A DNA stretch of 64,000 nucleotides from positions 124,001-188,000 of the forward strand of contig NZ_RXHS01000004.1 in NCBI RefSeq assembly GCF_004138125.1, given 5' to 3'. The DNA is from Seramator thermalis (lineage in GTDB: Bacteria; Bacteroidota; Bacteroidia; Bacteroidales; Dysgonomonadaceae). Shown in pieces: positions 21,840 to 56,520 of this stretch. The notes below the pieces were generated by a model, which saw only the letters and a list, made by a program, of their open reading frames with translations, made no database searches and was not told the origin of the DNA. The first letter of the stretch is position 1. Each line of letters begins with the position of its first letter. Made by a program: the position numbers and the translations under genes.

Positions 21840-21883
21840 CCAAGTCCGTATTTGCGTCGTACTTGGGTCGTACTTGGGTCGTG
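21840..21883 (-). repeat. 11-bp tandem repeat, four units (minus-strand orientation)
   Basis: Read on the minus strand, four consecutive 11-nt units are CACGACCCAAG, TACGACCCAAG, TACGACGCAAA and TACGGACTTGG. The third unit is identical to one in the six-unit array at 55838-55903, so both arrays belong to one repeat family. Confidence 0.8.
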
Positions 21884-26868: not shown

Positions 26869-28752
26869 TCATTTAATCGAAATCAACTCGGAGCACATTT
26901 TTTTGTAATATATCGAGGCTTCACTTTCTGTTAACTGGCGTGTCCATGATACGCGATGAGAAATATCGCTTCCTTTCCCTGTGTTTTGATATTCTACAAA
27001 TATTGCTGTTTTTTCGTTTTCCGGATTCCCCCAATTGTCCCATCCTTCAGGTTTAATCACTTCACCCAAATCACATGCAATAAACGCAACATGGGCGTAT
27101 GGTCTCCATGGTCGGCCAAGATAAAAAGCATGCTCTTTTTCGCCGCTTACTCGGCAATGATAAAAAACATACCCATATTTTGCTTCCTGAGGAGTGGAAG
27201 CTGCGGTTATATATCCCGTATCCTTACAGAAAATTTCACACTTATCGAAAAAAGCAGTAGATGATCCAAAAATAAAATCTACCGTTCCTTCGATATAACA
27301 GTTTTCATAATATTGTTTACTGAAAGGCTTATGTGTGTACAAGGTATCTTGAAATCCAATAAAACGACAATTAATAAAGCACGCATTATCGCTCCTTACA
27401 ATAATAGCAACAGCCTGACCAACAGGACCTGCAGCATTCTCAAACGTTAGATTTTGCGCAGTGAAATGATCGGGGCATACATAGATGCTCGCCGAACCCG
27501 ACGTACCTATCTCGTCTCCTAACCCGCTCTTTTTCGACGCAAAATTATTATAAGAAATTATGGTTTGATATTTATCTTCCCCTATCAGGAATAACGATTG
27601 TTTGGTATCGGGAATAACAATTTTTTCATGATAAAAACCCTTGCGAATAAATATCCTCGTCGGTCTTTTACGAAAATCGGGAACCGCATTGATGGCCTCT
27701 TGAATCGTCGTGAAATCTCCGCTACCATCTTGTGCAACAATGATATCGTAGGTCTCATTAATCTCACCTGATGGCTTATCGAACATCTTACGAAGAAAAT
27801 TCGCGGCATACCCTACGGTTGTCAAATGCCAAGGATGAAAATGCCAAAAAGTATGAGGTGTTTCATCAAAAACATGCACTTCGGAATAAATCCCAAGGCT
27901 ATCCAATCGGTGAATATAATCCTCTCTGCCATTATGGAATCGCGGAATGGAACTATTGATGAAACAAACTGGTGCCGAATTGCCATTAACCCCATACAAC
28001 GGGGAAGCATCTTTCCATATTTCCGAGATTTCTTCATAAGTACCTCCCAACCACAAAGCATCTGCAGGTGTTTTCTCTCCTTGTTCTTTGGCTTTTTTTG
28101 CCCTGTTGATTGTTTCCGGTTCAATAAAAGTAGAGATACCGTCGATATTAATCACTGCTTTGATTAGTTTATCTCTATTTTTGGTACCTATTAGCGCAGC
28201 CAATTGCCCTCCGGCTGAACACCCCGATACAGCGATTTTGTTTTTATCGATTTTGTATTCATCTGCATGACGATAAAGCCATAAAACGGCATCATTCAAA
28301 TCGTCCACAGCAGCCGGATATTTTGCTTCAGGACTAAGACGATATTCAACTGTGGCAGTAACAAAACCCTTCTGGGCAAGGCGTAAAGCCAACGCTTTTT
28401 GCATTTCGGGAGAACCCGAGTTCCATCCTCCTCCATGTATCATCAATACAACAGGATAAGTTATGGCATCATTCGGACGGTAAATCGAAAGATAAAGATT
28501 TCGCTTCCCATAGGGTGTTTCAGAAAGTGTTTTATATACGACTTGTTCCCTCACCTCCAAATTTTTCGGCACTATTGTATCTGCTAACCGAATAAAAGGA
28601 AAATGTTTTTTCTCTTTCTGATTGCAACTGTACAAGGTATAGCTTGTATCACGGGGCACTCCGTTTATCATTACCGTTTGCGAAAAAACGAGGGAACAAT
28701 TCGCATATAAACATACGATCACGAACAGAATATGCGAAAAAAATGTTTTCAT
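26869..28752 (-). CDS. Alpha/beta-hydrolase esterase fused to CE8 pectin methylesterase
   Basis: 627 residues, exported (MKTFFSHILFVIVCLYANCS). The N-terminal half (about 60-330) is an alpha/beta hydrolase with MIHGGGWNSGS (oxyanion hole), SGCSAGGQLAAL (nucleophile Ser) and a His near ETPHTFWHFH. The C-terminal half (about 335-627) is a right-handed beta-helix pectin methylesterase with QDGSGDFTTIQEAI, NLTFENAAGPVGQAVA, EGTVDFIFGSS (catalytic Asp) and YLGRPWRPY (Arg). The fusion could strip acetyl or other esters and methyl esters from the same homogalacturonan chain. It starts 22 nt after the GH43 gene. A start 15 codons upstream would hide the signal peptide. Confidence 0.9.
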   Translation of the reverse strand: MKTFFSHILFVIVCLYANCSLVFSQTVMINGVPRDTSYTLYSCNQKEKKHFPFIRLADTIVPKNLEVREQVVYKTLSETPYGKRNLYLSIYRPNDAITYPVVLMIHGGGWNSGSPEMQKALALRLAQKGFVTATVEYRLSPEAKYPAAVDDLNDAVLWLYRHADEYKIDKNKIAVSGCSAGGQLAALIGTKNRDKLIKAVINIDGISTFIEPETINRAKKAKEQGEKTPADALWLGGTYEEISEIWKDASPLYGVNGNSAPVCFINSSIPRFHNGREDYIHRLDSLGIYSEVHVFDETPHTFWHFHPWHLTTVGYAANFLRKMFDKPSGEINETYDIIVAQDGSGDFTTIQEAINAVPDFRKRPTRIFIRKGFYHEKIVIPDTKQSLFLIGEDKYQTIISYNNFASKKSGLGDEIGTSGSASIYVCPDHFTAQNLTFENAAGPVGQAVAIIVRSDNACFINCRFIGFQDTLYTHKPFSKQYYENCYIEGTVDFIFGSSTAFFDKCEIFCKDTGYITAASTPQEAKYGYVFYHCRVSGEKEHAFYLGRPWRPYAHVAFIACDLGEVIKPEGWDNWGNPENEKTAIFVEYQNTGKGSDISHRVSWTRQLTESEASIYYKKMCSELISIK

Positions 28753-53533: not shown

Positions 53534-55693
53534 TCAGAGATTTTTCTTGTAAAAATCAATCACTTTTTTGTACAAATAACTTCGTGTATTCCCACCATAA
53601 ATGGAGTGATTTTTGTCCGGGAATACAAACATCTCGAATTGTTTGTCGGCTGCCACAAGTGCGCGTGTATATTCCATCGCATTCTGAAAATGCACGTTAT
53701 CGTCGGCTGTGCCGTGAATCAGAAGCAGATTCCCCTGCAATTGTTTGGCAAGTTTGAGCGGAGAACCATTGTCGTAGCCCGATTGATTTTGTTGTGGCGT
53801 TCGCATGAAACGTTCGGTATAAACCGAATCGTAAAAACGCCAATCGCTTACGGCCGCAATCGCCACGCCTGCCTTGAAAACACCGTTGCCACGGCTCATA
53901 CTCATCAGCACATTGTATCCGCCATAACTCCAGCCCCATATACCGATACGTTTGCCATCCACATAAGGCAATGTCGCGAAATATCGAGCGGCAGCTACTT
54001 GATCATCCGACTCCAAAATGCCGAGTTTCATGTAGGTTTGTTTTCGAAACTCTTCGCCCCGCGCGCCTGTACCTCGTCCGTCCACGCAGGCAACCAGAAA
54101 TCCTTCGTTAAGCAAAGCGTACTCCCAATCAATTCCAAATCGATCAGTAACTTCCTGAGAGTTTGGTCCACTATATTGAACCATAACCAAAGGATATTTT
54201 TTTGAGGCATCAAAATTTGCCGGCTTCAATATCCATCCGTTCAACTCGGTTACACCGTCGGCAGCAGTCACCACAATAAACTCTTTTTGAGGCAATCGGG
54301 CTTCGACAATCTTTTGAGCCGTTGCCTGATTGTCTTCAAGCATGCGAAGCAGCTTGCCATTGGCGTCATGAAGGGAAATTTGCGTAGGTGTGTGAATATC
54401 GGAATGACGCAAGACAAAAAATTTCCCGTTATTACTAAACGTGGCCGAGTTATAGCCTTGTTCGGCCGAAAGTTTTATCGAATTGCCTTTTTCCATATTC
54501 ATCTTATAGATATTGCGGCGCAAAGGGCTTTCATCGGCTGATTCATAAAACACATTGTTCGTTTGCGGATCGACAGCCAACAAACGTGTTACATCGAAAG
54601 CACCTTTGGTGAGCTGCTTTTGCAATGCTCCCGTTTTGCCGTACAGATAAATGTGACTATACCCATCTTTTTCGGAGATATATGTAAACCTGCCATTTGC
54701 GAAAACGATAGAAGTCAGAAAATCGGAATCGATATAATATTTGTTTTCGTCGCGCAGCACAAGTTTGGCAACAGTGGTTCGAGGATTTACGAAATACATA
54801 TCAAACCGGTTTTGATCTCGATTGAGCGTCATCACTGCCAATTCGTCGGGACTGTCGGTGAATGCAATCCGCGGAATATAACCATCCTTATCAAGGGGTA
54901 CCGCCATAGTGCGTGTGGTGCGTGCTTCGATATCGAAAACACGACATTCCACAGTCGAATTCATTTCGCCCGGTTTTGGATATTTATACGTATAAAAATC
55001 GGGATATAGTTTTTCGTCGAAAGTTTGAAAACGATATTGCGGAACTTTCGATTCGTCGGTACGCACAAAAGCGAGCATCTTGTTATCGGGCGAAAATTCC
55101 ATCAACCGAGTCGTGCCGAACTCTTCTTCATACACCCAATCCGTAGCGCCATTCATAATTGCATTGAATTCGCCATCCTTTGTAATTTGTGATTCGGTAT
55201 CAAAATCGAATTTAGCCAGCCAAATATTGTTATCGCATACGTAAGCGAGCATTTTCCCGTCAGGGGAAAAAGTCGGAATCATTTGTTTACTTTTGTTTTC
55301 GGTAAGTTTCCTCACCAAATTCCTCCGCACATCATGATAATAATAGGTAGCGCGAAACGAATGCCTGTAAATTTGTTCGCGATCACGACAGACCAATACC
55401 CGATTCTCGTCGGGACTCACGAGGAACCCTTCGAATGTGTCGAAAGAGCATTCGCGTGCCTTGCGTGTGTTGAACAACGTATCTACAGCTTTCCCCGTTT
55501 CATACGAAAACTTAATGACAGCCGTCCGCTCATCATTCATTTGGTAATAACTCATTCCATCAGCAGACGAAACCGGTGGCTTGACGCCACGTTCCGAAAA
55601 TTTACCACTCACGATATCCTGTAAGGTATAATTTTGGGCAGATAGTCCACCTAAACAGATACCGAAAAGAATAGGAAGAATTGTCTTTTTCAT
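53534..55693 (-). CDS. Dipeptidyl peptidase IV (S9 family)
   Basis: 719 residues, exported (MKKTILPILFGICLGGLSAQ). The N-terminal eight-bladed propeller carries DWVYEEEFG, the Glu pair that binds the substrate amino group. The catalytic domain shows GIWGWSYGGYNVLM (Ser589), IHGTADDNVHFQNA (Asp) and FPDKNHSIYGG (His). It removes Xaa-Pro or Xaa-Ala dipeptides from peptides in the periplasm. The start at 55693 gives the signal peptide directly; a frame reaching 55741 crosses the promoter. It appears to be a single-gene transcript. Confidence 0.93.
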   Translation of the reverse strand: MKKTILPILFGICLGGLSAQNYTLQDIVSGKFSERGVKPPVSSADGMSYYQMNDERTAVIKFSYETGKAVDTLFNTRKARECSFDTFEGFLVSPDENRVLVCRDREQIYRHSFRATYYYHDVRRNLVRKLTENKSKQMIPTFSPDGKMLAYVCDNNIWLAKFDFDTESQITKDGEFNAIMNGATDWVYEEEFGTTRLMEFSPDNKMLAFVRTDESKVPQYRFQTFDEKLYPDFYTYKYPKPGEMNSTVECRVFDIEARTTRTMAVPLDKDGYIPRIAFTDSPDELAVMTLNRDQNRFDMYFVNPRTTVAKLVLRDENKYYIDSDFLTSIVFANGRFTYISEKDGYSHIYLYGKTGALQKQLTKGAFDVTRLLAVDPQTNNVFYESADESPLRRNIYKMNMEKGNSIKLSAEQGYNSATFSNNGKFFVLRHSDIHTPTQISLHDANGKLLRMLEDNQATAQKIVEARLPQKEFIVVTAADGVTELNGWILKPANFDASKKYPLVMVQYSGPNSQEVTDRFGIDWEYALLNEGFLVACVDGRGTGARGEEFRKQTYMKLGILESDDQVAAARYFATLPYVDGKRIGIWGWSYGGYNVLMSMSRGNGVFKAGVAIAAVSDWRFYDSVYTERFMRTPQQNQSGYDNGSPLKLAKQLQGNLLLIHGTADDNVHFQNAMEYTRALVAADKQFEMFVFPDKNHSIYGGNTRSYLYKKVIDFYKKNL

Positions 55694-55715
55694 TCTGAGA
55701 ATATGTTTTATGTTG

Positions 55716-55723
55716 CAAATATA
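55716..55723 (-). promoter_or_regulatory. -7 box of the dipeptidyl peptidase gene
   Basis: Minus-strand TATATTTG (55723-55716) matches TAnnTTTG, 23 nt before the ATG; a matching -33 box is not clear. Confidence 0.45.
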
Positions 55724-55837
55724 GCCATTTTGTCCGAACAATTTTTTATTATTATCCTATCGCATACCACACAGCGAGGCTGCCAAATAAGGAAGAATAA
55801 CGGGGCAAAGGATCGTTTAGTGTTCATTCGAACCATG

Positions 55838-55903
55838 TACGGCGCAAATACGGCGCAAATACGGCGCAAATACGACGCAAATACGACGGAAATACGACGG
55901 AAA
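55838..55903 (+). repeat. 11-bp tandem repeat, six units
   Basis: Units in order: TACGGCGCAAA three times, TACGACGCAAA once, TACGACGGAAA twice, without gaps. The unit is close to one DNA helix turn and puts an AAA(T) tract on the same face each time. The same family occurs inverted at 21840-21883. Confidence 0.9.
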
Positions 55904-56036
55904 CATGCAACGATCAGAAAATTATTTTAAACGTAAAATAGGGGAATGAATAAACCCTATTTCCTGTTTTTGCGGCAAAAAAATAAAATAACACGAGCAG
56001 ATTAAATTGTTTTTTTTACAACCAAAAAATTATCAT

Positions 56037-56044
56037 TATCTTTG
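56037..56044 (+). promoter_or_regulatory. -7 box of the rseC-rnf operon
   Basis: TATCTTTG matches TAnnTTTG, 44 nt before rseC. Upstream at the -33 distance lies a T-run instead of TTTG. Confidence 0.5.
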
Positions 56045-56088: not shown

Positions 56089-56520
56089 ATGATTGAACAC
56101 GAAGGCATCGTTGAAGAAATAAGCGACAATAATCTTACGGTACGCATTTTGCAACAATCTGCTTGCGGAACATGCAGTGCAAAAGGCTATTGTTCTGCAG
56201 CAGAATCAAAAGACAAGCTTATCCATATTACAGATTCTACCGAAAAAATTCAGGTACATGATAAAGTTATCGTCCTTGGTACTGAATCTATGGGGTACAA
56301 AGCTGTATTTTGGGCTTACATAGCACCGTTAATTCTTATTCTGTTTACAGTTATTCTGGCTACAACTGTATGGAAACTCACCGAAATACAGAGCACATTC
56401 GTTGCCATTCTTTCTCTCATCCCCTATTATATTTGTCTGTACCTGTTGAAAAACAAAATGACTCGTAACTTCCAATTTACTATAAAAAAAACCGACACAA
56501 CAAACCCATCCGAAATATGA
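56089..56520 (+). CDS. rseC: RseC/SoxR-reducing-system family membrane protein
   Basis: 143 residues. The N-terminal cytosolic part has the cysteine motif [18 protein letters not shown], and two membrane helices follow (about 80-103 and 108-127). RseC homologues accompany Rnf genes and are thought to modulate or assist the Rnf/SoxR-reducing complex. Its stop overlaps the rnfB start by 4 nt (ATGA), making it the first gene of the rnf operon, the usual arrangement in Bacteroides. Confidence 0.88.

Follow-up and report, generated by a model that had tools for sequence, protein, structure and literature searches.

The tandem array at positions 55838-55903 of the DNA analysed here, a 64,000-nt stretch of Seramator thermalis referred to below as the window, is probably a member of a dispersed repeat family that is specific to the genus, intergenic in location and built on a minisatellite core. 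At this particular site it most likely has no dedicated role in regulating the dipeptidyl peptidase gene or the rseC-rnf genes that flank it. Among the 101 genomes of the taxonomic family and the 393 of the order that were surveyed, the repeat is abundant only in this genus, which is represented in the comparison by two genomes, one of them 83% complete. The features of the site, and of a second array in the window, are as follows, with identities given relative to the sister species (genome G001).

53534-55741, minus strand: dipeptidyl peptidase ORF, taken from its first TTG (Pfam DPPIV_N, 1.7e-100; Peptidase_S9, 1.2e-56)
55703-55930, plus strand: accidental 75-aa open frame spanning the array, broken in the sister species
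55716-55723, minus strand: TAnnTTTG consensus box before the dipeptidyl peptidase gene
55801-55826, plus strand: leader of about 26 nt, weakly common to copies at unrelated places; 65% identical to the sister species here
55827-55837, plus strand: diverged first (seventh) unit TTCGAACCATG, in phase with the array; present in most copies
55838-55903, plus strand: six 11-bp units TACGRCGSAAA, from the letters and TRF
55904-55917, plus strand: short tail CATGCAACGATCAG (common form in the repeat family, CATGAACGAAGAA); 14 of 14 positions identical in the sister species
56037-56044, plus strand: TAnnTTTG consensus box upstream of rseC
56089-56520, plus strand: RseC/MucC-like gene (Pfam PF04246, RseC_MucC, 3.5e-28), with rnf genes downstream as named in the sequence-only reading
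21851-21883, minus strand: second array of the repeat family, 3 units, between convergent genes

The sequence-only reading from which this work began had described six gapless 11-bp units between two divergent promoters, crossed by an open frame of no coding significance, and each of these points stands. Re-reading of the letters gives TACGGCGCAAA three times, TACGACGCAAA once and TACGACGGAAA twice, all on the plus strand, and the TRF score of 97 (period 11) is the highest in the window, against best scores of 78 at any period and 46 at period 11 in 40 dinucleotide shuffles of the window. The flanking genes diverge from the array and match DPPIV_N/Peptidase_S9 and RseC_MucC, with boxes on both sides that fit the promoter consensus TAnnTTTG; the likely ATG of the dipeptidyl peptidase ORF, judged by eye, lies near 55693. 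The sister species lacks 44 bp of the frame that crosses the array, and because 44 is not a multiple of 3 the frame is accidental; a peptide-coding repeat was rejected on account of this break. A 14-nt inverted pair (79%; 55811-55824 and 55902-55915) brackets the array, its left arm not being kept in the sister species. The neighbours of the second array converge upon it and encode a TPP-enzyme resembling 2-oxoacid oxidoreductases and a SusD protein; this array is degenerate in the sister species.

That the array might belong to a repeat family had been suggested, together with a search of this genome and of related Bacteroidales, and the suggestion is amply borne out: the array is not confined to this site, and about 30 similar ones were found. 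The two-unit pattern TACGRCGSAAATACGRCGSAAA has 18 exact matches in the genome and its reversed control none, while a 17-mer at up to 2 mismatches has 50 matches, at 28 places, against 2 for the control. One of these places (C36:160195, beside a tRNA gene, L089:7046) was dropped as a chance occurrence, leaving 27 arrays. A sequence profile built from 16 copies of the same genome gave at least 34 matches at at least 33 places (the 27 pattern arrays and six weak copies, the window array being matched twice), and at least 14 matches in the sister species; the profile searches scored the best 150 of some 500-1400 first-look candidates per genome, so that weak copies may be missed. Most arrays comprise 3-4 units and lie in long gaps beside unrelated genes. 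All but one of the 27 are situated between ORFs of at least 100 aa, the exception (L071) falling inside a 106-aa ORF judged spurious.

Copies at unrelated places share an anatomy that extends beyond the repeated core. A typical copy consists of a leader of about 25 nt, a diverged first unit (TTCGAACCAWR in most copies), as a rule another 2-3 units of 11 bp, and a short tail; the gapless units are set between a leader and a tail common to the copies. Across 16 copies, chosen for their alignable four-unit arrays, 23 of 70 columns are invariant. In a set of 20 copies the base at -1 is always A and that at -12 is G in 17; the 20 nt immediately preceding the array carry 0.41-0.45 bits of information per column and the ten before them 0.17, with 0.1 bits or less beyond -30 and beyond +50. 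The TACG letters are kept in 59-60 of the 60 units of these copies and the A at position 10 in all 60, while positions 5, 7, 8 and 11 vary. Of the 13 exact occurrences of TTNATTCGAACCA in the genome, 12 are at arrays, and the one that has no array beside it appears by eye to be coding sequence. Tails read CATGAACGAAGAA or, elsewhere, TATGATTCGAACAATGG, or resemble neither. Five copies (L071, L075, L078, L091 and L093) carry a different leader of about 190 nt with a common left edge some 180-205 nt before the array. BLAST with the L078 leader found three places, each with an array, and missed the leaders of L075 and L093, the most diverged, so that solitary diverged leaders could likewise be missed.

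Unit number, whose tabulation between relatives had also been proposed, differs at the same site in the two species of the genus. The window site has two units in G001 and six here, the difference being an exact 44-bp gap, with the position of the leader, the first unit and the tail kept; L079 shows an 11-bp gap relative to the sister species, and L089 a 10-bp gap as aligned. Counterpart regions in G001 were located for 21 of the 27 arrays, seven through G001's own arrays and 14 of the 20 that were sought by their flanks. An array is present at 12 of these 21 sites, in two of them (L086 and the window array at 21851) in degenerate form. The remainder comprise one uncertain case (L070), five in which the array is absent or replaced (L071, L073, L080, L083 and L084) and three that are unreadable in G001, L075 lying at a contig end and homology at L074 and L078 stopping before the array. 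Viewed from the other genome, 12 of the 14 profile matches in G001 fall at sites that have an array here (10 at pattern arrays, two at the weak copies L173 and L174), and those on G001 contigs C5 and C19 have no counterpart among the loci compared. Since these 12 matches and most of the readable sites are common to both species, the dispersal is largely older than the species split, with losses and possibly some gains in the time that followed. No clean empty site was seen among the site pairs read, the array-less sister sites differing by large replaced stretches. At L084, just past the leader side of the array, there is an alpha-galactosidase-like gene fragment (identified by eye) that is absent from the sister species.

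Beyond the genus the repeat is scarce. A related pattern at up to 2 mismatches was positive in 4 of the 101 genomes of the taxonomic family, with 42 and 11 matches in the two genomes of the genus and single matches in G002 and in G009; for the reversed control there were 5 matches in 4 genomes, none of them in the genus. Among 393 genomes drawn evenly from the order, the positives were the source genome itself, G140 (3 matches at two sites) and G422 (1 match), and the reversed control gave 5 matches in 5 genomes. The single matches in G002, G009 and G422 are therefore at the level of the control, and only G140 stands out. This genome belongs to another Bacteroidales family, and its two sites (contigs C5 and C26; L200 and L201) match the profile at E values of 4.8e-8 and 7.3e-6, eight other genomes giving nothing better than 0.026. 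Both sites lie between ORFs, and their units, which number two to four and are in part degenerate, are of 11 bp and nearly identical to those here; one array is followed by TTCGAACAAAATGG, which is close to the tail of the longer copies here. Within the taxonomic family, profile matches occurred in G001 (at least 14) and G009 (one), and none was found in six other genomes among the best 150 candidates scored in each. The G009 match deserves caution: although that genome is assigned to another genus, 3.4 kb of its contig C253 (L104) is 98.7% identical to the S. thermalis genome (L173), and misbinning or a recent transfer is for that reason the probable explanation. Exact matches in a collection of one genome for each of 84,980 species, a sampling that may leave out near relatives of the window, came from an uncultured Bacteroidales MAG (CALUNA010000026.1) and one Chitinophaga contig (L105). 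Carriage by phages or plasmids was considered and rejected, the exact two-unit pattern occurring in 0 viral contigs and a 401-bp query matching 0 plasmid records.

The sequence-only reading had laid emphasis on the particular promoter pair between which the window array lies, and this emphasis finds no support in a survey of the other copies. Of 26 classified arrays (L071 and the weak copies L171-L176 being outside this set), 12 lie in tandem, 10 in divergent and 4 in convergent gaps, which is not significantly different (chi-square p 0.21) from the share of bases in other gaps (57% tandem, 24% divergent, 20% convergent). The gaps that hold arrays are long (median 582 bp); the median of the 47 other gaps of at least 80 bp in the same loci is 176 bp. 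Of the 26 arrays, 21 have 100 bp or more between them and the ORF on each side. A Pfam scan of the 54 proteins flanking the 27 arrays revealed one integrase, no transposase and no common function; they include MutS2-like protein, thymidine kinase, CTP synthase, TonB receptors, two glutathione peroxidases, Hsp70 and PFOR. Judged by gap class, and by function as read by eye from Pfam names, the arrays are not placed near the promoters of a coherent gene set. Because the same element adjoins unrelated genes elsewhere, dedicated regulation of dipeptidyl peptidase and rseC-rnf was set aside as the main reading. Several redox-stress genes were noticed by eye among the neighbours, and L072 also adjoins a DPPIV gene, there downstream of the gene, which we take as coincidence. 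The reverse strand of the leader resembles, by eye and with one base too many, the Bacteroidales -33/-7 promoter pair. A leader acting as a promoter that reads away from the array was rejected, no preference for gene starts appearing on that side: genes start toward the array in 16 of 26 cases on the leader side and in 16 of 26 on the tail side.

The history that best accommodates these observations would run as follows. Many copies were in place before the split from the sister species, as is seen at comparable sites. Unit number has changed since, at the window site by exactly four units, presumably through unequal recombination or slippage in replication. In their middle triplet the arrays of the two genomes differ as if those of each had drifted together, presumably by gene conversion between arrays. 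The first spread of copies may have come about by non-autonomous transposition of the BrickBuilt kind or by template switching between repeats.

Porphyromonas gingivalis, the host of BrickBuilt, likewise belongs to the Bacteroidales. BrickBuilt is built of 23-nt minisatellite units flanked by a leader and a tail; its inverted ends are IS5-like, it has 19 intergenic copies, whole units come and go from strain to strain, and target duplications are reported (PMC4596501). The element described here resembles it in its spacerless tandem units between leader and tail, intergenic location, neighbours of mixed function, turnover of whole units, combination of conserved and variable unit positions and restriction to one or two species (PMC4596501). 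The two differ in unit (11 bp here, 23 in BrickBuilt), copy number (about 30 against 19), array length (up to 6 units after the first against up to 22.8) and leader (about 25 nt in most copies against up to 285 nt), and the IS5-like terminal inverted repeats and target duplications of BrickBuilt have no demonstrable equivalent here (PMC4596501). A second parallel is offered by the TAACTGA heptamers, direct repeats of Beggiatoaceae, Cyanobacteria and some Bacteroidetes that are proposed as sites of a post-transcriptional regulator (PMC4679880). They too are short direct repeats that form many intergenic sets, with no pattern in downstream functions and a patchy distribution; their unit is of 7 bp and in the main genome studied they lie mostly just upstream of start codons, whereas the arrays here occupy the middle of gaps and have a leader and tail (PMC4679880). 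For the unit string itself the literature gave papers with unrelated titles, and among those listed on dispersed or tandem repeats these two were the nearest. The attraction of the present repeat is that of a compact, countable family in a Bacteroidales genus, whose spread, gain and loss of units and concerted change can be traced from one species to the other at each site; its 6 units against 2 also make the window site a possible typing marker.

The most durable of the competing explanations regards the arrays as phased operators, in which TACG....AA would be presented on one face of the helix and bound cooperatively, from the TTCGAACC unit onward, by a putative protein of PhoB/OmpR or nucleoid type that organises the chromosome or controls scattered genes. 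We hold this to be possible, if unlikely. PhoB/OmpR-type operators are 11-bp direct repeats near the promoters of a coherent regulon, and the arrays recall them in the spacing of their direct repeats by one turn of the helix and in the pairing of a conserved with an A+T-rich portion; they depart from them in that neither promoter placement nor a coherent regulon was found. The fixed polarity, fixed first unit and constancy of TACG and A10 beside variable positions 5, 7, 8 and 11 all favour binding, as do the two arrays with unit TACGGCGCAAA in another Bacteroidales family. So does the distribution of interspecies differences: among 29 aligned units there are 47 differences, of which positions 1-4, 9 and 10 take 11, against 25.6 expected on a uniform model (p 4e-5, the units not being independent), and addition of two weak and two degenerate sites, the latter found by flanks only, gives 22 of 78 against 42.6 expected in 43 units. 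This bias looks like binding-site selection, and counts against the preferred reading of a dispersed minisatellite, unless gene conversion explains it; isolated conserved positions in the leader, such as the G at -12 (17/20), are also more suggestive of contacts than of a transposon in decay. Weighing on the other side, the whole array is no more conserved than its flanks, its orientation bears no relation to the direction of neighbouring genes (16 of 26 on either side), those neighbours lack a common function, most arrays (21/26), in gaps whose median length is 582 bp, keep 100 bp or more away from each flanking ORF, and of 21 sites compared, five are without an array and two degenerate in the sister species. 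Over 13 site pairs the arrays are 82.4% identical (408/495), the leaders 80.2%, the tails 75.3% and the flanks 82.9% and 73.3%, so that the element is not specially conserved as a whole.

A shift of the middle triplet between lineages is the remaining argument for binding. Differences of A and G at position 5 comprise 10 A-to-G and 1 G-to-A in ten pairs (Fisher p 0.005), 11 against 2 in twelve pairs (p 0.010) and 12 against 2 in fourteen (p 0.006), compared with 116 A-to-G and 129 G-to-A in the flanks. Of the units counted here, 40 of 65 have ACG as their middle triplet (45 of 79 when weak copies are added by hand, with GAG in 3), while 33 units of the sister species have GAG 12, GCG 6 and ACG 6 times. 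In both statistics the units are not independent, and since the arrays of the S. thermalis genome were found with ACG-favouring patterns and with a profile trained on that genome, the triplet shift may be partly a matter of ascertainment. Taken at face value, the two shifts are what would be given either by gene conversion among arrays or by sites that follow a changing protein. An extension of the latter idea, which we regard as distinctly unlikely, has a putative genus-specific protein loading at TTCGAACC and polymerising along the 11-bp units on one helix face, so as to tether some 30 intergenic sites, the change from ACG to GAG or GCG reflecting co-evolution of protein and site. A new protein that organises the chromosome or regulates genes would be implied, were the binding reading true.

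Very unlikely, in our estimation, is a transposon of MITE kind, in which copies with the leader of about 190 bp would be near-intact, the short copies would be remnants and a transposase would act in trans. It draws on the common left edge of five copies, some 180-205 nt before the array, on the BLAST matches of the L078 leader, whose three places all have an array, on the occurrence of leaders and tails in several combinations, and on a perfect 11-bp inverted pair (ACCGGCAAAAA/TTTTTGCCGGT) in L078 with its left arm at the common edge. Against this, homology between L078 and L080 continues for about 24 bp beyond the putative right end, and neither a target-site duplication nor, among the 54 flanking proteins, a transposase was seen. 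Neither the ends of an element nor target-site duplications nor any consistent terminal inverted repeats could be demonstrated; around 30 arrays, inverted repeats exceeded every shuffle in 5 of 60 tests, which is about the level of chance with 12-30 shuffles per test. Having a unit different from that of BrickBuilt and no demonstrable ends, the element is therefore classed as a variant of the dispersed minisatellites and not as a MITE.

A structured RNA or attenuator read from the array is scarcely credible, for while one folded sequence, the minus strand of the window copy, does better than most of its shuffles (z -2.46, equalled by 2 in 200), five other folded strands have z between -0.85 and 1.01, RNAalifold, given the array strand in alignments of 15 and of 16 copies, detects no conserved base pair, and Rfam gives no match in 11 other loci at gathering scores nor at the window site at E up to 1. 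As to the proposal that the phased A-tracts bend the DNA, the predicted bend is indeed above that of shuffles, a wedge model with assumed angles giving 70 degrees over 77 bp against 27.6 +/- 14.2 for 500 mononucleotide shuffles (2 as large); the bend is not above what the period alone gives. Random permutations of the unit, repeated seven times, bend by 66 +/- 31 degrees and 21% of them reach the 93 degrees of the true unit, so that the predicted bending is a consequence of the 11-bp period, and curvature as a selected property is weakened by this control.

The genome seems, partly by eye, to be rich in short intergenic repeats in general. Other dispersed repeats adjoin the arrays at L071, L072 and L073, among them a CTGCC..GGCAG..CCCCTTATCTTAAGGGG piece and runs of AATTACGAATTGCGAATTAC type, and the second-best tandem repeat of the window is a 23-bp sequence in two copies at 27583-27626, with a TRF score (67) within the range of the shuffles.
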